This document shows positions 5,331 through 52,957 of a DNA stretch of 64,000 nt, piece by piece. How positions within the stretch are numbered: the stretch's first letter is position 1; each line of letters starts with the position of its first letter. This DNA comes from Exiguobacterium acetylicum (lineage in GTDB: Bacteria > Bacillota > Bacilli > Exiguobacteriales > Exiguobacteriaceae): the NCBI RefSeq assembly GCF_022170825.1, contig NZ_CP081878.1, forward strand, positions 1,886,001-1,950,000, read 5' to 3'. The notes below the pieces were generated by a model, which had not been told where the DNA came from, searched no databases, and saw only the letters and a program-made list of their open reading frames with translations. Made by a program: the position numbers and the translations under genes.

Positions 5331-5435
5331 ATCGCTCACCTCCTGTTGGGTTGGTACACATAACTATCCGAGCGAGCATGTAGCAAACGAGTGGGACTGG
5401 GGTAAGACTACAGGTATGCTACACGGATGAGACAG

Positions 5436-5648
5436 GGACCTCTTCTCGCCAGGATAATTACGGGTACCAAAAAACGCCCTGTCCGTTTCAGGGCGTTTCG
5501 TTCAATCATTTATGGTAGTAGCTCTATCGTAGAACAACGCAACCTCAGTCACGCCCGCTTCATTCCACGTACTTAGCATAGCACCAATCCGTCAAGGAAT
5601 CGTATCAACACTGTATCAAAAGAGTATTAAAAGTGTATCAACAAATTA
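5436..5648 (-). repeat. Copy 1 of a duplicated control segment with 11-bp tandem repeats
   Basis: This segment resembles 6662-6855 along its length: a leader (CTCGCCAGGATAATTA here), a hairpin built on CGCCCTG, a short open frame containing EAGVTEVALFY, and then tandem 11-mers ending in GTATCAA (four units here, one with GTATTAA, about 5601-5645). The 11-bp spacing puts each unit on one face of the helix, as for a cooperative DNA-binding protein. See the findings for interpretation. Confidence 0.75.
5472..5498 (-). terminator. Intrinsic terminator in copy 1 of the duplicated segment
   Basis: AAACGCCCTG and CAGGGCGTTT form a 10-bp stem with a seven-base loop and a T run on the minus strand. 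It marks the end of whatever transcript crosses the 5.5-5.6 kb segment. Confidence 0.8.
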
Positions 5649-5658
5649 AAGTATGTAT

Positions 5659-5895
5659 TCACGAATGCTTTTCTAAATAAGCCTTTCCTCTATGCCCAAT
5701 TGTGACGTCACGTGTATAAGTTTGATATAGAGTAGTCCTTCCACTAGGAGTTGCTTTATTACTTCCGCCTTTGATATACCTTTTGTTCTCAGCCTTTTTA
5801 AAAACTTCATACATAAAGAGCGATGAAAAACTTAGTTCGTGCGACAGTACATCTTGCTTCGGTTGGTATTCAGACGTTTTTATAATAGGAATCGT
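5659..5895 (-). pseudogene. Probable 3' remnant of an unrecognised gene
   Basis: An open frame of 78 codons ends in EKHS at 5659. It has protein-like composition, including SLFMYEVFKKAENKRYI and RTTLYQTYTRD segments, but no proper start or ribosome site. It is cut off upstream by a stop codon and by the terminator hairpin of the 5942 gene. An internal ATG at 5812-5814 would leave 51 codons without a good ribosome site. I read it as the tail of a gene broken when the accessory block was assembled. The family is not recognised. Confidence 0.4.
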
Positions 5896-5914
5896 TTATT
5901 GTTTAGGAAAATAA

Positions 5915-5940
5915 AAAGAGCACCCTGCAGGGTGCTCTTT
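5915..5940 (-). terminator. Intrinsic terminator of the 145-aa gene
   Basis: A fully self-complementary 26-bp hairpin (AAAGAGCACCCTG and its complement) starts right after the stop codon of the 5942 gene and continues into further T residues on the minus strand. Confidence 0.88.
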
Positions 5941-5941
5941 A

Positions 5942-6379
5942 TTAAAACAAAGTAAAACGTATTGCACGGTCAATACTATCCGGAAGAATCGTTTCTTCAT
6001 CGACTACCTCACCTTGATTGTCGAGCTCGTAGAACCTAGCTCCACTGTATGTTGGCTCAATTGACGCAATAGGTATTACTCTAGTTCCACGGGAACTATC
6101 AACGCTTCTAAATGCAATGATTCCGCCCCCCTCATTAAAATGAACTTGGAATCCTTTTTCTTGACCGTTCACTAATGGAAGTAAATATTCCACGGTCTCA
6201 TTATTGATTTCCCGCAATATGAGCGTACCCGAATCATTTGAGAGGTCCTGTAAATCCTCTCGTAATTCTTCAAGCTCTTCTCGTACATACTTGCTTAAGC
6301 TATCAAATGACGTAGTAGATTTCAAAAATATATTCATCTCGATATTTTGAGCTACTGTTTTTCTCCATTCCTTATCCAT
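5942..6379 (-). CDS. Unknown 145-aa protein, single-gene prophage accessory unit
   Basis: A 145-aa acidic protein. Residues about 25-55 form a charged helix (VREELEELREDLQDL), followed by a beta-rich part with FQVHFNEGGGIIAFRS and IPIASIEPTYSGARFYEL. I do not recognise a family. The gene has its own perfect terminator and is bracketed by the two copies of a duplicated control segment, the layout of an independently transcribed 'moron'. Superinfection exclusion, defence or host modulation are all possible, but nothing in the sequence selects among them. Confidence 0.65.
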   Translation of the reverse strand: MDKEWRKTVAQNIEMNIFLKSTTSFDSLSKYVREELEELREDLQDLSNDSGTLILREINNETVEYLLPLVNGQEKGFQVHFNEGGGIIAFRSVDSSRGTRVIPIASIEPTYSGARFYELDNQGEVVDEETILPDSIDRAIRFTLF

Positions 6380-6523
6380 TTAAATCAACTCCATTTTTCA
6401 AGATCGGCTAGACCGTCCTAAATATTGTATCACCACACCCTTATTTTCCCTAATAACATGTTATCTTAAAAACAATATACAATCATTTCGAGATTCTCTT
6501 AAAGACTATCATTTGTTTGTTTT

Positions 6524-6571
6524 TCAATTCTTGTCTACCTCCCAGCAGACTTTGAATTGCTTGTGTTTCAT
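6524..6571 (-). CDS. Very short ORF with a strong ribosome binding site
   Basis: A 15-codon frame (MKHKQFKVCWEVDKN) follows AAAGAGGAGCGAGACAT, a near-ideal ribosome site. It could be a leader peptide for the 5942 gene 145 bp downstream, or the 5' stub of a truncated gene. Its length gives little support beyond the ribosome site. The rest of 6380-6867 has no gene; it holds the second copy of the duplicated segment. Confidence 0.3.
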   Translation of the reverse strand: MKHKQFKVCWEVDKN

Positions 6572-6661
6572 ATGTCTCGCTCCTCTTTATGTACAAATAC
6601 CCGGATAAGAACGACAGCTGCAGGCATCTTGGGGACCGCAAGGAACTGTCATTATAATAAT

Positions 6662-6855
6662 CGAGGAGGTCTTCAACTCACCCGGATACTTCTGCATACA
6701 AAAAAACGCCCTGTTCGTTACAAGGCGCCTGCATTATGAGTAATGCTTATGTCCTGTAGAACAATGCAACCGTCGTCGCACCCGCTTCGTCTACATGGAA
6801 AGAACATCACTTATTTAGCGTTTTTTGTATCAATATTGTATCAAAAGAGTATCAG
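6662..6855 (-). repeat. Copy 2 of the duplicated control segment
   Basis: This matches 5436-5648: a similar leader (CTCACCCGGATACTT), a hairpin at 6706-6726 followed by seven T on the minus strand, an open frame with EAGATTVALFY, and three 11-mers ending in GTATCAA or GTATCAG (about 6824-6854). The two copies differ at many bases, often at third codon positions of the shared EAG-T-VALFY stretch, so the duplication is old or was acquired twice from related phages. Confidence 0.7.
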
Positions 6856-6867
6856 AAAAAATAAAAA

Positions 6868-7911
6868 TCATTTATTAGTAAATTTATTGTATCCAATAAT
6901 CATAAATTTATGTATAAAGTTTACAATTATTAAAATTGCTGAAGGTATTAAACAAAGCATAGATATTTGAATCATTATGGAAAAATTACCCCAGTTCACG
7001 CCATCATCAGTTACTCCATTTGCAAGAAGATTTCTAAATTCAAAATACTTATCAATAACCGCAAATGAAGTTACCGTAACAACTAATAAAATACTAAAAA
7101 AGACAGTTGGATGTTTGGCGGCAAATGAACAAGTACAATTTTTATCATTCTCGCTACAGGAACAGCTTCTTATTGGGAGATTTGACATTCTCGATAAACC
7201 ACTGAAAAGTAGAGAAAGGATTAATATTAACGATATGAACACAAACGAACCATGAATTAAAGCTACATCTAACGGGGTTTTGTTAAGTCCCTTAAAAACT
7301 TCTGCTAACAACTGCAAACCTCCAAATGCAGCAAAGATTATAGTTGTAAACATACCTAAAACAGCGACAAAATCTCTTTGATTATCTTTTTGTTTTTTTT
7401 CAATAGCATCTTGTTTTTCTTGTAACTTTGTCTGACTTTCATCAAGTAATCTTTGTTTTTCAATTAGCTCATCGGATTTTTGTTCAAATACTCTCATCAA
7501 ATCCTTACTATGTCTTACAATGGGTTTCACACCTTCCATAACCTGGTTTGAAATGCCATTCATCATTATTCTTTGGATTGAAACCAAATCAAAATGCATT
7601 CTAATTTCCTCTAAAATTAGCAATGCATTTTGTATTTTTTTAATTGTTATATCATCTAGCTCAATATTATCTCTAGCAATTAAGTCATCCTTGCAAGCTT
7701 TTAATATTGCGGAAATATCCGCTTCGAATGATGGATCTTTTGTAGATATAAAATTAGTAGTAGCAATAGCCAACATAGGCTTACTTAAATCAATAGGAGC
7801 TTCTAATAGTTGATGGATGATATTTTCTGATTCTGCATCTCTATCAACTCCATCAACTGCTTGAGCAGCTTTTTCAATAAATCCTAGTAGTTCATCAATA
7901 TAGTGGGCCAT
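6868..7911 (-). CDS. Four-helix membrane protein, candidate Panacea-linked toxin
   Basis: A 347-aa protein: a soluble helical N-domain (1-137), a Glu/Gln/Lys-rich coiled coil (about 138-180), and four hydrophobic helices near 181-203, 217-238, 268-286 and 310-333. A cysteine cluster (SCSCSENDKNCTCS) lies between helices 2 and 3. It follows the Panacea-domain gene with stop and start sharing one base (TAATG), so the two are translationally coupled. Panacea (PanA) antitoxins are known to pair with varied toxins, some of which act on the membrane. A membrane-acting toxin or abortive-infection effector is therefore likely, though this exact protein family is not recognised. Confidence 0.65.
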   Translation of the reverse strand: MAHYIDELLGFIEKAAQAVDGVDRDAESENIIHQLLEAPIDLSKPMLAIATTNFISTKDPSFEADISAILKACKDDLIARDNIELDDITIKKIQNALLILEEIRMHFDLVSIQRIMMNGISNQVMEGVKPIVRHSKDLMRVFEQKSDELIEKQRLLDESQTKLQEKQDAIEKKQKDNQRDFVAVLGMFTTIIFAAFGGLQLLAEVFKGLNKTPLDVALIHGSFVFISLILILSLLFSGLSRMSNLPIRSCSCSENDKNCTCSFAAKHPTVFFSILLVVTVTSFAVIDKYFEFRNLLANGVTDDGVNWGNFSIMIQISMLCLIPSAILIIVNFIHKFMIIGYNKFTNK

Positions 7912-15799: not shown

Positions 15800-16477
15800 T
15801 CAGACAAGCGATGGTCGCCATGATTTGACATAGGCAAGTGCTTCTTCGAACTGGCTCTGTTTGATATCCCGGTAAGACGCGACAGCGAATGCACGCTTGA
15901 TGTCACTTCCGAAGCGACCGTACACCTTCGCCTTCGACGGGTAGAGTTCTGAGTTCGTTTGCGAGATTTCATCCCACAGGGCTTCCGCACGTGATTTCTT
16001 CGCACTCTCGATCGCAAGTTGTTGACCGTAGTCCAGCGTCATGCGTTGATCAATCTTATCGTTGAGTGTCGTAATCGCGACCTCTGTCTCTTGTTGCTTC
16101 AAAAGCATCTGCGCCGTCGAGGCAAACAATTCAGCGAATGGGATACCTTTTGGCATCTCGTATGATCCAGTGCTTCGGATGGAAGGAAGAACGTCTTCCA
16201 TGATCCAGTTTTCAAAGTCTTGCGCTGCAGGTAACTTAGAGTTGATGACCAAGCGATACACATCTGATTCTCGAATGACACGTACCTCTTGAATTCGATT
16301 AAGCGAGTCGGTGATACCCCGTTTTAGGGCAACACCCTTGCAATGACGATTAATTGCGTTGTTTGGTTTTTGATAACCAAGAATCATCGCCACATCAGTC
16401 GCTACGAAAAGTGGCGCTCCATTTTCCTCAATCAATCTAATTTCCTTGCCTTCAAATACTTTTGTAAGTTGTTTCAT
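15800..16477 (-). CDS. Phage antirepressor, Bro-N and ORF6C domains
   Basis: A 225-aa antirepressor. The N-terminal Bro-N domain (about residues 1-105) has VFEGKEIRLIEENGAPLFVA, DVAMILGYQKPNNAI and the closing ESDVYRLVINSKLPAAQDFE. The C-terminal ORF6C domain has SELYPSKAKVYGRFGSDIK and VASYRDIKQSQFEEALAYV. Such proteins counter the CI-type repressor and help the lytic switch. It is the first gene after the cro-like gene. I set the start at ATG 16475-16477 (GGGGG nine bases upstream). An operator-like site (16501-16515) lies just before it. Confidence 0.85.
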   Translation of the reverse strand: MKQLTKVFEGKEIRLIEENGAPLFVATDVAMILGYQKPNNAINRHCKGVALKRGITDSLNRIQEVRVIRESDVYRLVINSKLPAAQDFENWIMEDVLPSIRSTGSYEMPKGIPFAELFASTAQMLLKQQETEVAITTLNDKIDQRMTLDYGQQLAIESAKKSRAEALWDEISQTNSELYPSKAKVYGRFGSDIKRAFAVASYRDIKQSQFEEALAYVKSWRPSLV

Positions 16478-16500
16478 CGACGATAACCCCCTGTTGTGAT

Positions 16501-16515
16501 TTTCAGTTTTAGAAA
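16501..16515. promoter_or_regulatory. Operator-like site O1 (TTTCAGTTTTAGAAA)
   Basis: This site lies between the antirepressor start and the cro-like gene's stop. It is a variant of the TTTCTGTTTTAGAAA motif found four more times in this region, so it probably binds the CI-like or Cro-like protein. Confidence 0.6.
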
Positions 16516-16543
16516 TCGGGTATTTATAATACACAACCCTTAA

Positions 16544-16558
16544 TTGCTATTTTAGCAA
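16544..16558. promoter_or_regulatory. Operator-like site O2 (TTGCTATTTTAGCAA)
   Basis: A perfect palindrome (TTGCTA, three bases, TAGCAA) that overlaps the end of the cro-like gene. It is the best-formed of the operator set, and its position suggests control of transcription into the antirepressor. Confidence 0.65.
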
Positions 16559-16780
16559 GTTATCAATAAAAAAATTTTCTATTGGCTGATCATACAATTT
16601 TGCTAAGAAGAACAACTCTTCGATAGAGAATTTGTAAATGCCATTTTCCCGCTTCGACAACATGGATTCGCTTTTAAATCCAAGCTTTTCTGAAACTTCT
16701 CTTAGCATCATTTTTTTATCTTCCCTTGCTTTCTTCAATAAGGAAGGATCAATTCTCGGTTGCTCTGAAATCGTCATCAT
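16547..16780 (-). CDS. Cro-like XRE helix-turn-helix protein
   Basis: A 77-aa XRE-family DNA-binding protein with the helix-turn-helix in KMMLREVSEKLGFKSESMLS, followed by ENGIYKFSIEELFFLAKLYD. It is divergent from the CI-like gene and shares a 141-bp control region with at least four operator-like sites, which is the lambda/Lactococcus switch layout. It should repress the lysogenic promoter in lytic growth. GGAGATAGACG precedes the start. Confidence 0.82.
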   Translation of the reverse strand: MMTISEQPRIDPSLLKKAREDKKMMLREVSEKLGFKSESMLSKRENGIYKFSIEELFFLAKLYDQPIENFFIDNLLK

Positions 16781-16921: not shown

Positions 16922-17314
16922 ATGGAGTTGATGATGATGGAAAGGCGATTCCGGAGTGAGCGACTTAGAGAATGTAGAATAAAGCGCGGGATGCAACAAG
17001 ACGAGATGGCTCGGCATTTAAAAACGAACACAAGTACAATGTCTAGAATTGAGAACGGGAAAAAGCAACCAGACCCAGAAATGATAATTATGATGGCTGA
17101 ACTCTTCAACGTGTCTACTGACTATTTGCTTGGTCTTGTCGAAGATCCTCAATCGACGCATGATGAATATTTAAGAGACGCATTAAAAAAATATGAATTT
17201 ATCGGTACATTTTTCAGTGAGGACAAATTAAAAGAACTTCCCCAAGAACGCCTAGAAAATATTATTAAATATATGGATGAGCAATACAAATTAGCAAAAA
17301 TTGAAGAAAAATAA
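16922..17314 (+). CDS. CI-like XRE repressor
   Basis: A 130-aa lysogeny repressor. The N-terminal XRE helix-turn-helix (about residues 10-65) has LRECRIKRGMQQDEMARHL and MSRIENGKKQPDPEMIIMM, ending in the FNVSTDYLLGL signature. The short C-terminal helix has no LexA/UmuD-type peptidase, so it cannot self-cleave in the SOS response in the usual way. This makes the convergent LexA-box mini-ORF (17323-17493) of interest. It ends at a hairpin terminator at 17315-17347. Confidence 0.85.
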   Translation: MELMMMERRFRSERLRECRIKRGMQQDEMARHLKTNTSTMSRIENGKKQPDPEMIIMMAELFNVSTDYLLGLVEDPQSTHDEYLRDALKKYEFIGTFFSEDKLKELPQERLENIIKYMDEQYKLAKIEEK

Positions 17315-17347
17315 CCCCAACGTCATCTTGACCGTTGGGGATTTTTT
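17315..17347 (+). terminator. Intrinsic terminator of the CI-like gene
   Basis: CCCCAACG and CGTTGGGG form the stem, followed by a run of six T. The hairpin begins right after the stop codon. The last codons of the convergent mini-ORF (17323-17493) lie inside it on the other strand. Confidence 0.85.
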
Positions 17348-17493
17348 GCATATTTTTTAAATTTAATTATTTCTTCGATGTCTTTATTCGGGAAAACTAG
17401 GTACTTGTTTTGTTCTTCATTCCAAAATGCAGTAACCTCTGTTCGGATACCATGCATTACTAACGTCATCTCTTTCATTTGTCGCTCAATCAA
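17323..17493 (-). CDS. 56-aa mini-ORF behind a possible LexA box, convergent with CI
   Basis: The frame starts at a TTG (17491-17493), about nine bases after GGGAGGG, and reads LIERQMKEMTLVMHGIRTEV, then FWNEEQNKYLVFPNKDIEEI and a basic end. The frame stays open upstream, so a longer product is possible. It lies on the minus strand, convergent with the repressor, and its 3' end overlaps the repressor's terminator. The promoter (see 17513-17555) overlaps a LexA-like site. Function unknown; an SOS-made regulator or antirepressor is a hypothesis. Confidence 0.5.
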   Translation of the reverse strand: MIERQMKEMTLVMHGIRTEVTAFWNEEQNKYLVFPNKDIEEIIKFKKYAKNPQRSR

Positions 17494-17512
17494 ACGTAGC
17501 GCCCTCCCGTTA

Positions 17513-17555
17513 CGAACCTGTGTTCTTATTAATATAATTAGTATGCCTTATGCAA
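17513..17555 (-). promoter_or_regulatory. Putative promoter with LexA-like box
   Basis: On the minus strand TTGCAT (17550-17555) and TAATAA (17526-17531) are spaced by 18 bases. CGAACCTGTGTTCT (17513-17526, + strand) abuts the -10; the consensus is CGAAC-N4-GTTCG, and this site differs at the last base. This would give DNA-damage control if LexA binds. The rest of 17494-17825 is AT-rich with no gene; it has a palindrome TTCTGTT-TC-AACAGAA at 17688-17703 that may control the downstream lipoprotein. Confidence 0.5.
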
Positions 17556-17825: not shown

Positions 17826-18473
17826 ATGAAACACTTAGTAATTGGAACATCTATCACTGCAGCATTATTGCTTTCTGGATGTGGAGAAGAATCTTCTGTC
17901 ACAACAAAAGAAGATAAAACGACTGTCAAAGCAGATGAAAAAACTGACACAAGTTCAGTAAAGTCGGAGGACAAAAAAACGGATCCTGCCGAGACGAAGG
18001 AAGCGAATAAAGTCGAAAAAAGTGAAATCGGCGAAAAGACTGTTCAATTCACGAACAAGAAGCTGGGTATCAGCACCAAACTTGGACCAATTAATTTCAA
18101 AATCAATAAGGTCCAGACTTCTCGCCTAAAAATTAATGAAGGTTACAAAAAGATGTTCGAGGATAAAGATGAAGTCACTTTAATCGTTCTAGAAGCTGAT
18201 GTTGAGAACACAAGCGGTGATTCTGTAAATTTCTATCCGAATCAAGCAAAACTCACAACAAACACTGCTGAACAAATTGACGCAGCGATTGTTTTATCTG
18301 ATGATATCGGCGGAGAATTTATTGGTAAGGTAAAGAAGTCTGGGAACATTATTTTTCTAGCAGAATCTGATCCGAAAAAAATTACTAATGTTAAATTTAT
18401 TGCTGAAGGTCCAAGCGATGCTAACTTCACCTCTCTAGCAGAACGCTATACAGTTGAGATTCCTACAAAATAA
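17826..18473 (+). CDS. Prophage-encoded lipoprotein, DUF4352-like
   Basis: A 215-aa exported lipoprotein. A short signal peptide ends in the lipobox LLLSGC; a long charged Lys/Glu/Asp/Thr linker (about residues 25-75) follows, then a beta-rich domain that resembles the DUF4352 immunoglobulin-like fold (FKINKVQTSRLKINEGYKKM, VTLIVLEADVENTSGDSVNF). Its location between the repressor and integrase matches lipoprotein genes that block superinfection in streptococcal phages, a role only inferred here. The start is set by AAGGGAGGAA before ATG 17826. Base use is AT-rich. Confidence 0.7.
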   Translation: MKHLVIGTSITAALLLSGCGEESSVTTKEDKTTVKADEKTDTSSVKSEDKKTDPAETKEANKVEKSEIGEKTVQFTNKKLGISTKLGPINFKINKVQTSRLKINEGYKKMFEDKDEVTLIVLEADVENTSGDSVNFYPNQAKLTTNTAEQIDAAIVLSDDIGGEFIGKVKKSGNIIFLAESDPKKITNVKFIAEGPSDANFTSLAERYTVEIPTK

Positions 18474-21227: not shown

Positions 21228-21749
21228 TCATTTCTTTGAATTATTGTATCGATGCTTCGCTGCTTCACTTGATAAATTGAATCTAAGCATGATTTCATTT
21301 TGCGAAAGCGTCCCAATCAAGTGCGCGGGAGCTAGTAGTTCACCAGCGAATTCGTTCGCCTGCCATTCAGGATCTTTGTATGCAGGAATGGACACGGCGA
21401 ACTCTCCTCTAGCCAAGCGCTTGATATTTTGATGTAAAAATACATGCCCTATTTCGTGAGCCAGCGTAAATCTGTGTCTTGGATTTCCATTTAGTGCAGC
21501 CTCATAAACATCTTCTCGAATCCATAGCTCATTTTTTTCTGGAAGAAAAAATGCGTATTCATACATTTTATCCTTAGGAATTATTCTTAATGAAAAATCT
21601 TTGAATATTTCAGGTAGACCGTACTCGATCAGTCGAAATATGTCTATGTTTTCATCATCCGGAACGTTGAAAAGATTTCGAATGAACAACGCAAACGCTC
21701 TGATTTGTTTTCTTGACATGGGGCTTGCTACAAAATGCGGCTGACTCAC
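21228..21749 (-). CDS. ImmA/IrrE-family metallopeptidase
   Basis: A 173-aa zinc peptidase of the ImmA/IrrE family, with the HExxH motif in FTLAHEIGHVFLH and downstream acidic residues (EWQANEFAGELLAP) for the third ligand. In ICEBs1 and several phages ImmA cleaves the adjacent ImmR repressor after DNA damage. Here it lies next to the XRE gene at 21761, with a GTG start 11 bp after that gene's stop. The two fit an ImmR-ImmA pair, but the target is not proven. Confidence 0.85.
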   Translation of the reverse strand: MSQPHFVASPMSRKQIRAFALFIRNLFNVPDDENIDIFRLIEYGLPEIFKDFSLRIIPKDKMYEYAFFLPEKNELWIREDVYEAALNGNPRHRFTLAHEIGHVFLHQNIKRLARGEFAVSIPAYKDPEWQANEFAGELLAPAHLIGTLSQNEIMLRFNLSSEAAKHRYNNSKK

Positions 21750-21760
21750 TAGGCATCACC

Positions 21761-22114
21761 TTACTTTCTATCGAATATATTTAAAATCTCCTTTAATTCA
21801 TTTGGACTAATGTCACTTTGTTTTCTGGCCAACGCCATTAAAACTTGTTGATTATTCTCGCCAATTTCTTCGGTTTTGAACTTTATTAGCCCCTCTGTTT
21901 CATAAACACTTTCCTGAAGTAAAAATCTTTCATCCTCATTAAGGTTATACAATTCGGTTATTCTACCGACCCAGTCTTCTGGAATTGCACGTTTTCCATT
22001 TTCTACTGCAGATAGATAAGAAAGCGTAACTCCCAATTTTGTAGACATGTCTTTTAAAATTTCATTGTGGTCAATTCTAATTTTTCTGCAGAATTTACCA
22101 AACGGAGTTATCAA
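21761..22114 (-). CDS. XRE-family repressor, ImmR-like
   Basis: A 117-aa XRE protein with its helix-turn-helix in LKDMSTKLGVTLSYLSAVEN and a helical C-terminus with LLQESVYETEGLIKFKTEEI. It is followed by an ImmA-like peptidase gene. The 243 bp between it and the integrase contains AAAACA-N7-TGTTTT (22194-22212), a possible operator that could control the divergent integrase. The prophage thus has a second repressor system beside the CI/Cro-like one. Confidence 0.8.
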   Translation of the reverse strand: MITPFGKFCRKIRIDHNEILKDMSTKLGVTLSYLSAVENGKRAIPEDWVGRITELYNLNEDERFLLQESVYETEGLIKFKTEEIGENNQQVLMALARKQSDISPNELKEILNIFDRK

Positions 22115-52222: not shown

Positions 52223-52957
52223 TCAATTTTCAGATTCTTCGATCGATTCCTCTGAAAACACAGGTTCGCCTTTTTCGTTTATCGTGTAGCTTTGGGAATA
52301 GGCAGGAACAAAAGGTTGATCTTCATAGAGCAAATACCGAATATCTTGACCAACTTTCGGCTTTTTCTTCGCAGTTTGGACAGCTTTCTTCAACTCTGGT
52401 AAATAGTTGATGAAGAGTCGTCCTTGACCATCGACATAGATCGATAATTTTTCATCCGAGTACGGACTTGGGACAGTCGGTTCCTTTTTGATGAATAATT
52501 TTTTGTAGTCAAGCGTAAACTGGTTCTTACCAAACGATCCTTTGAAGGGATACTTATCATTCTTTTTCCGATAAGCATCGATTCGGACTTGGAGCTTTTG
52601 TAGCTCTTCCGCAACAAGTAAATCCATCAACTTAACAGTCGGTTTCGTCTCGACATCGACTAACAAGTAGATGAACGTTCCCCCACCTTCAAAACTATTC
52701 GATGGTGGATCGCTCATATAACGCGGTATTAACCGCCCGAGTTCAATTTGGTACCGCTCCATGAGCGGTGTATCTGCCTCCATCGTTTTGATTGGTAAAA
52801 CACCTGTGTCTTTTTGGTAAGCCTCAACGGCCTCCTGAACGGTACGTAATTGTTGCGGATACGGCACACGGTTCGACGGCTTCTGACTGTCTGGAAATAG
52901 ACAACCGGACAACAACGTCACCGGTATGAGCATGAGGATGACAAACCACTTCTTCAT
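52223..52957 (-). CDS. yphF: YphF-like lipoprotein
   Basis: A 244-aa exported lipoprotein: signal [19 protein letters not shown] with a lipobox, then a soluble domain with a Y-rich beta pattern (FQ-type stretches YDDGK-like segments are not resolved) and [20 protein letters not shown]. It belongs to the YphF family of unknown function. The start at ATG 52955-52957 gives the signal peptide; the long upstream reading is spurious. It overlaps yphE by four bases. Confidence 0.85.

Follow-up and report, generated by a model that had tools for sequence, protein, structure and literature searches.

The window (the whole 64-kb stretch of DNA analyzed here) includes a prophage in which an unannotated frame of 56 codons, hereafter the mini-gene, lies tail to tail with the gene for a CI-like repressor (Table 1). 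A sequence-only reading of this DNA had pointed to the frame and to its GGGAGGG site, and both are present. It had also described the repressor as having no self-cleavage domain, in agreement with our domain searches, which gave helix-turn-helix matches and no peptidase match. Indeed, at E 0.01 no peptidase family was found in CI of the window or of the eight relatives described below, and helix-turn-helix domains were the only ones above Pfam cut-offs. Because all of these CI proteins are without a peptidase domain, the SOS response must reach CI via another product.

Table 1. Features around the CI-like repressor and the mini-gene, in window coordinates.
Feature	Position	Strand	Description
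Bro-N/ORF6C phage anti-repressor (Ant)	15800-16534	minus	lytic side; domain matches
Cro-like HTH protein	16547-16780	minus	77 aa; divergent from CI; start of lytic side
CI-like repressor	16922-17314	plus	130 aa; helix-turn-helix only, no cleavage domain; convergent with mini-gene
Bidirectional terminator hairpin (predicted)	17315-17340	both	common to CI and mini-gene; contains mini-gene stop codon
Mini-gene	17323-17493	minus	56 aa, TTG start; ORF reading, profile search, BLASTP, predicted structure
Shine-Dalgarno GGGAGGG	17502-17508	minus	8 nt 5' of TTG start; GG kept in 8/8 aligned leaders
LexA-type box	17513-17526	both	core GAAC-N4-GTTC perfect, 17514-17525; 9/9 loci
Promoter TTGAAA-17-CATACT (predicted)	17568-17540	minus	TTGA and AT..T invariant in 8/8 aligned loci
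DUF4352-like lipoprotein	17826-18473	plus	below Pfam cut-off; query that gave the first relatives
M78 (ImmA-type) metallopeptidase	21228-21749	minus	domain match; beside integrase
HTH partner of M78 protease	21761-22114	minus	domain match

Relatives and coding evidence

Conservation of the frame in relatives had been named beforehand as the check to be run against it. We found a homologous small frame in eight relatives from Exiguobacterium-type prophages, one of them an isolated phage, each in the same slot and convergent with a short CI. The nine loci (the window, L021, L023, L028, L030, L031, L034, L035, and L114) were gathered via neighboring genes, and none was picked for its LexA-type box. 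The lipoprotein search led to four viral contigs, L021, L022, L023, and L024 (the last at 25% identity); in L021 and L023 the mini-gene slot is filled by a small frame on the minus strand, with a motif around Trp in common and a perfect box upstream. With the CI protein, we reached genome G001 (L028, 48% identity), which has both the frame and a perfect box, as do L030, L031, L034, and L035 from a CI profile search, for which the best 80 of 340 confirmed loci were used. The six top rows of that search (L030-L035, E up to 1e-22) all carry the perfect box, L032 and L033 being the same contigs as L021 and L023, while the next three (L036-L038) have none within 700 nt. A DNA search with the L035 CI yielded Exiguobacterium phage vB_EalM-137 (L114), in which the mini-gene frame is present and unannotated.

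The mini-gene is rare: of 38 genomes examined from the bacterial family, two carry it, and two scans of genome contigs gave no confirmed relative. Single-protein searches with the 56 residues likewise yielded no real relative; the relatives surfaced only via neighboring genes. A match in genome G028 (E = 0.013) was rejected as an alternative frame inside a 210-aa frame, and one in G019 (E = 0.024) lies inside a 534-aa open frame. Searching all viral contigs for a pattern from box to Shine-Dalgarno site returned three stretches, two on the known L034 and L035 contigs and a third (L160) rejected as a chance match on a contig of unrelated long frames. A looser pattern gave six matches in the 38 genomes: two are the mini-gene family, and four are alike at another host site (three of the four were read). 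At L034, an insertion element that is transposase-like by eye (5418-7063) lies between CI and the mini-gene, inside the 3' end of the latter; the box, the Shine-Dalgarno site, and most of the frame survive it.

The mini-proteins form a small family with an invariant Trp. The window member is not close to any of the others, sharing 16-31% identity with them. Its BLASTP match to the L035 protein covers 44 residues at 32% identity (E = 3e-8), and the alignment begins at residue 1 of both proteins, in support of the TTG start; the match to L021 has E = 2e-5. A profile built from the eight relatives, with the window member left out, placed the mini-gene at the top of the 1917 segments from a six-frame translation of the window (E = 2.4e-6, versus E = 1.0 for the runner-up). 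Two subset profiles also placed it first, one at E = 2.1e-5 and the other (L021/L023/L030/L031) at an insignificant E = 0.041. Between close pairs of mini-genes, third positions account for 18 of 21 changes in L035/L114 (dN/dS 0.035/0.79), 9 of 14 in L030/L031 (0.035/0.30), and 21 of 37 in L021/L023 (0.146/0.80). Judged by this third-position bias, the mini-gene evolves as protein-coding sequence, and on the comparative evidence the 56-codon frame is a real gene.

The structure predicted for the window mini-protein is beta-beta-beta-alpha with a mean pLDDT of 69.8, which is not a confident model, and that of L030 likewise combines three strands with a C-terminal helical region, at a mean pLDDT of 59.2, again not confident. 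Pfam, PHROGs, NCBIfam, and PDB gave no meaningful match for the mini-protein; a PHROGs search with eight members returned nothing below E 0.018, and fold searches had no match at E<0.001 and none that backs an antirepressor function. The HExxH metallopeptidase motif of an ImmA-type protease was not found in the 56 residues. Several of the weak PDB fold matches (E about 1-3, insignificant) are UvrD, Mfd, and CarD. All three have Tudor-like RNA-polymerase-interaction domains, a domain kind that thus recurs among the weak matches.

Box, promoter, and terminator of the mini-gene

The LexA-type box reads CGAACCTGTGTTCT on the plus strand and AGAACACAGGTTCG on the mini-gene strand, and its core, GAACCTGTGTTC, is a perfect GAAC-N4-GTTC. 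In all nine loci the box is perfect and lies between the promoter and the Shine-Dalgarno site, while the N4 has seven forms among the nine. Aligning the leaders of eight loci left as invariant the TTGA of the -35 element, the AT..T of the -10 element, GAAC, GTTC, the GG of the Shine-Dalgarno site, and scattered single bases. In L035 and L114, whose mini-proteins are 93% identical, the promoter stretches differ and the box is perfect in both. The predicted promoter comes from a scan that gave 14 promoter-type sites versus 7.9 in shuffles. Its -10 element had been said to abut the box, but the box begins 13 nt downstream of it, and the -35 element falls just outside 17323-17555, the interval first described.

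By number, such boxes are not unusual. Across the 3.36-Mb genome, GAACNNNNGTTC has 71 sites versus 68 for the reversed control, which is chance level, and CGAACNNNNGTTCK counts 8+5 versus 10+12 for its control. The sequence-only reading placed the palindrome correctly, but the box count alone is what chance would give, and the weight of the box comes from its position and conservation. Had a LexA-like palindrome fallen beside an open frame by chance, this genome-wide frequency and the single-protein searches that gave no real relative would both fit. However, frame, box, and layout are kept in nine of nine loci, the third-position bias is present, and the leave-out profile recovered the window member; we regard chance as scarcely credible. 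A near-identical box, CGAACCTGTGTTTT, lies at window positions 52255-52268 inside a 301-aa open frame and is itself most likely due to chance.

Known SOS genes of the host have boxes of this type upstream. Host lexA is preceded by two that are perfect and two with one base off, and recA by a single one-off box. At the yolD loci examined in the bacterial family, a perfect box is found at most 1.5 kb upstream in 28 of 31, with distances in two classes (6 near -84 and 22 near -1380). Together with the GAAC-N4-GTTC box at the mini-gene promoter of all nine loci, this indicates that the mini-gene is very probably a LexA-controlled (SOS) protein gene. YolD (PF08863), an SOS-operon protein common in the bacterial family, is also encoded by a small LexA-boxed gene, but it is a different protein: a YolD identity for the mini-protein, suggested by the SOS control, was rejected at an hhalign probability of 0.2%. 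On the smaller replicon of G000, a weak yolD-type match (C2:176088-176363, L002; 21.9 bits, below the cut-off) has a perfect box 81 nt upstream.

The hairpin between the mini-gene and CI can form on either strand (-15.6 and -15.2 kcal/mol). L021, L028, and L114, the relatives chosen for folding, each have a strong hairpin at the equivalent position on the mini-gene strand, so that folding covered four loci including the window. Most likely, the mini-gene transcript would end in this shared terminator without running into CI. The transcript had been proposed to cross the CI terminator, which it probably does not do, as the hairpin folds both ways and holds the mini-gene stop codon. A related proposal concerns antisense RNA or transcriptional interference, in which a damage-induced transcript would enter the 3' end of CI and lower CI, the frame being incidental. 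The convergent layout speaks for this, and a LexA-boxed promoter exists under either reading, but purifying selection acts on the mini-protein, and the stop codon lies within a two-strand hairpin in the window, with strong mini-gene-strand hairpins in the three relatives. Because the transcript likely stops at the shared hairpin and selection acts on the protein, the antisense proposal is weak, and we consider it very unlikely.

A proposed route from DNA damage to CI

An SOS-made small protein had been put forward as an induction route. What stands of this is a conserved, LexA-boxed coding gene that faces a non-cleavable CI; that its product disables CI is plausible. The coding test and the leader alignment place a small protein gene directly under a LexA box, and the cognate repressor has no self-cleavage domain, as expected of LexA-controlled small antirepressors of the Gifsy, 186, and N15 kind. 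Homology to a described antirepressor family, which the kind does not require, was absent from the Pfam, PHROGs, NCBIfam, and PDB searches. Three observations lead us to think it fairly probable that the mini-protein is an antirepressor of CI, and probably the damage-induction switch of the prophage: where the gene lies, a CI that cannot cleave itself, and one case in which CI type and mini-gene type change together.

LexA binding, damage induction, and CI binding by the mini-protein are what we infer from the sequence, and they would combine as follows. In the lysogen, the mini-gene would be kept silent by LexA bound at its box, a short way 3' of the -10 element. Upon DNA damage, RecA would trigger LexA self-cleavage, and the mini-gene promoter would fire. 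The 56-aa protein, with its predicted beta-beta-beta-alpha fold, would then be made from a transcript that stops in the terminator common with CI. This protein would bind CI, most likely at its C-terminal oligomerization part, and take it off its operators, whereupon the Cro/Ant lytic operon would start.

The joint type change is seen in L022 and L029 (genome G026), which are copies of one prophage type. Here, the lipoprotein is kept (60% identity to that of the window), and CI differs from the window's (27% identity). A second, unrelated small frame of 67 aa with a one-mismatch box occupies the mini-gene slot (L022 5572-5775, L029 4538-4741). Mini-gene type thus follows CI type and not the lipoprotein, as observed in this one prophage type only (L022/L029 versus the window, L021, and L023). 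Over the nine loci, mini-protein and CI distances are correlated (Mantel r = 0.96, p = 2e-4), though plain linkage alone could give the same result.

The slot of the mini-gene, between CI and the DUF4352-like lipoprotein, falls in a zone where accessory genes are common. Its product might be an SOS-driven accessory protein behind CI, LexA-controlled yet acting on the host or on other phages rather than on CI, for example by tuning RecA or LexA (as do DinI and GIL01 gp7), stopping division, or excluding superinfecting phages. The mini-protein has no match to antirepressor families, which is in line with such a role. There is also a Gram-positive precedent in phage GIL01, which is described as repressed by LexA itself and as encoding gp7, a small protein that acts on LexA (PMC4551915, PMC9700832, and PMC11323111). 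On the other hand, mini-gene type tracks CI type rather than the lipoprotein, and a CI without self-cleavage needs an SOS route in the relatives where the M78 motif is missing. We therefore hold an accessory role to be possible but rather unlikely.

Damage induction of the prophage could also run via the M78 (ImmA-type) protease and its HTH partner (21228-22114), leaving the mini-gene only a side role. Both have domain matches, and in Listeria phages A118 and A006 and C. difficile phage phiCDKH02 an HTH repressor-type gene is followed by a metalloprotease gene. However, the pair is about 4 kb from the mini-gene, is adjoined by the integrase, and has its own HTH protein, and the M78 motif was not found in the eight mini-gene relatives (8-12 kb per locus, not whole phages). 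We consider this route improbable. The ImmR/ImmA system of ICEBs1 and the Listeria phages A118 and A006 resemble the window in that damage induction must reach a short HTH repressor of a Gram-positive element by some separate route. In A118 and A006, though, the metalloprotease gene comes after the repressor on the same strand, whereas the window has a convergent, LexA-boxed mini-gene without a protease motif. To our knowledge, many Gram-positive prophages have a CI without a cleavage domain and are nevertheless induced by damage, by a mechanism that is mostly open beyond the ImmA protease route. The mini-gene makes one answer to this question directly testable, and it gives a name to an unannotated protein family.

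As antirepressor of CI, the mini-protein would join the LexA-controlled antirepressors that disable non-cleaved repressors in Gifsy, 186, and N15 (PMC3121763). GfoA, GfhA, and GftA of the Gifsy prophages of Salmonella are likewise small proteins, with a non-canonical start reported for gftA (GUG), are directly under LexA, and act on a repressor that is uncleaved on induction (PMC3121763). The Gifsy hosts are Gram-negative, however, and their antirepressor gene is placed next to dinI, not within the immunity region and at a relatively large distance from it (PMC3121763), whereas the mini-gene is inside the immunity region and tail to tail with CI. A PHROGs search with eight members, which gave no match at E<0.018, showed no sequence relation between the mini-protein and the Gifsy proteins. 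Tum of 186 and AntC of N15 are also LexA-controlled proteins, and Tum is reported to bind its cognate repressor (PMC3121763, PMC10432266), but Tum has 146 aa with a DinI-like half, while the mini-protein has 56 aa and matches no known family. Tiny, sequence-unrelated proteins that inactivate a cognate CI are also described for TF-smORF modules and for Qtip of phage-plasmids, whose expression is reported to depend on phage transcription factors or quorum sensing and not on SOS (PMC10432266, PMC11323111), in contrast to the LexA-boxed mini-gene. By title or start of abstract, none of the matches listed in our literature search, which mostly left subscription journals outside, described a LexA-controlled antirepressor gene facing CI in a Gram-positive phage, and we do not claim its absence from print. 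Altogether, the mini-gene is a well-supported SOS-boxed gene, for which a role as antirepressor appears likely.

Small frames behind CI in other phages

The arrangement of LexA box, small frame, shared terminator, and CI offers a rule by which to search for unrelated SOS inducers in other phages. Under a broader and quite tentative reading, which we consider rather unlikely, Gram-positive phages whose short CI cannot be cleaved would often have a LexA-boxed mini-gene facing it tail to tail as SOS inducer. Box, mini-gene, bidirectional terminator, and CI would then make up a cassette that can be exchanged, with unrelated mini-proteins filling the slot. Candidate fillers are the Trp family described above, the L022/L029 type, and, as leads only, a 43-aa protein of L100 and a 45-aa protein of C. 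difficile phage phiC2.

Among 58 non-redundant CI loci, the 0-300 nt behind CI hold six perfect boxes, where the remainder of these loci would predict 0.68 (P = 8e-5). Four of the six belong to the mini-gene family and the others to L045, which has no mini-frame, and L100, so that there is no clear excess outside the family. Boxes with one mismatch behind CI (L040, L059, L091, and others) are individually weak, with about 0.13 expected per 350 nt; no small frame is listed behind the L040 box, and L059 has only one, without a Shine-Dalgarno site. The perfect boxes in L045 and in L052 and L083, the latter two more than 450 nt from CI and without a Shine-Dalgarno site, do not fit the cassette pattern. 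The M78 motif occurs in 0 of 8 boxed and 4 of 50 unboxed CI loci (P = 1).

At L100, a 43-aa frame (about 5356-5520) with the perfect box AGAACAAGTGTTCG and an AGGGG site is convergent with a short CI. In phiC2, an unannotated 45-aa frame between p50 and p49 (L115 3031-3165, minus strand; L070 about 5427-5618) has the box GAACGTATGTTT, an AGGGG site, and a terminator-like repeat at its end, and it is convergent with a CI-type repressor. Phage copies of the phiC2 type carry the same 45-aa frame and are uninformative on its conservation. PMC4234289 includes GAACnnnnGTTT among the motifs that it looked for in C. difficile. By eye, the L100 and phiC2 mini-proteins resemble the C-terminal hairpin of CI.
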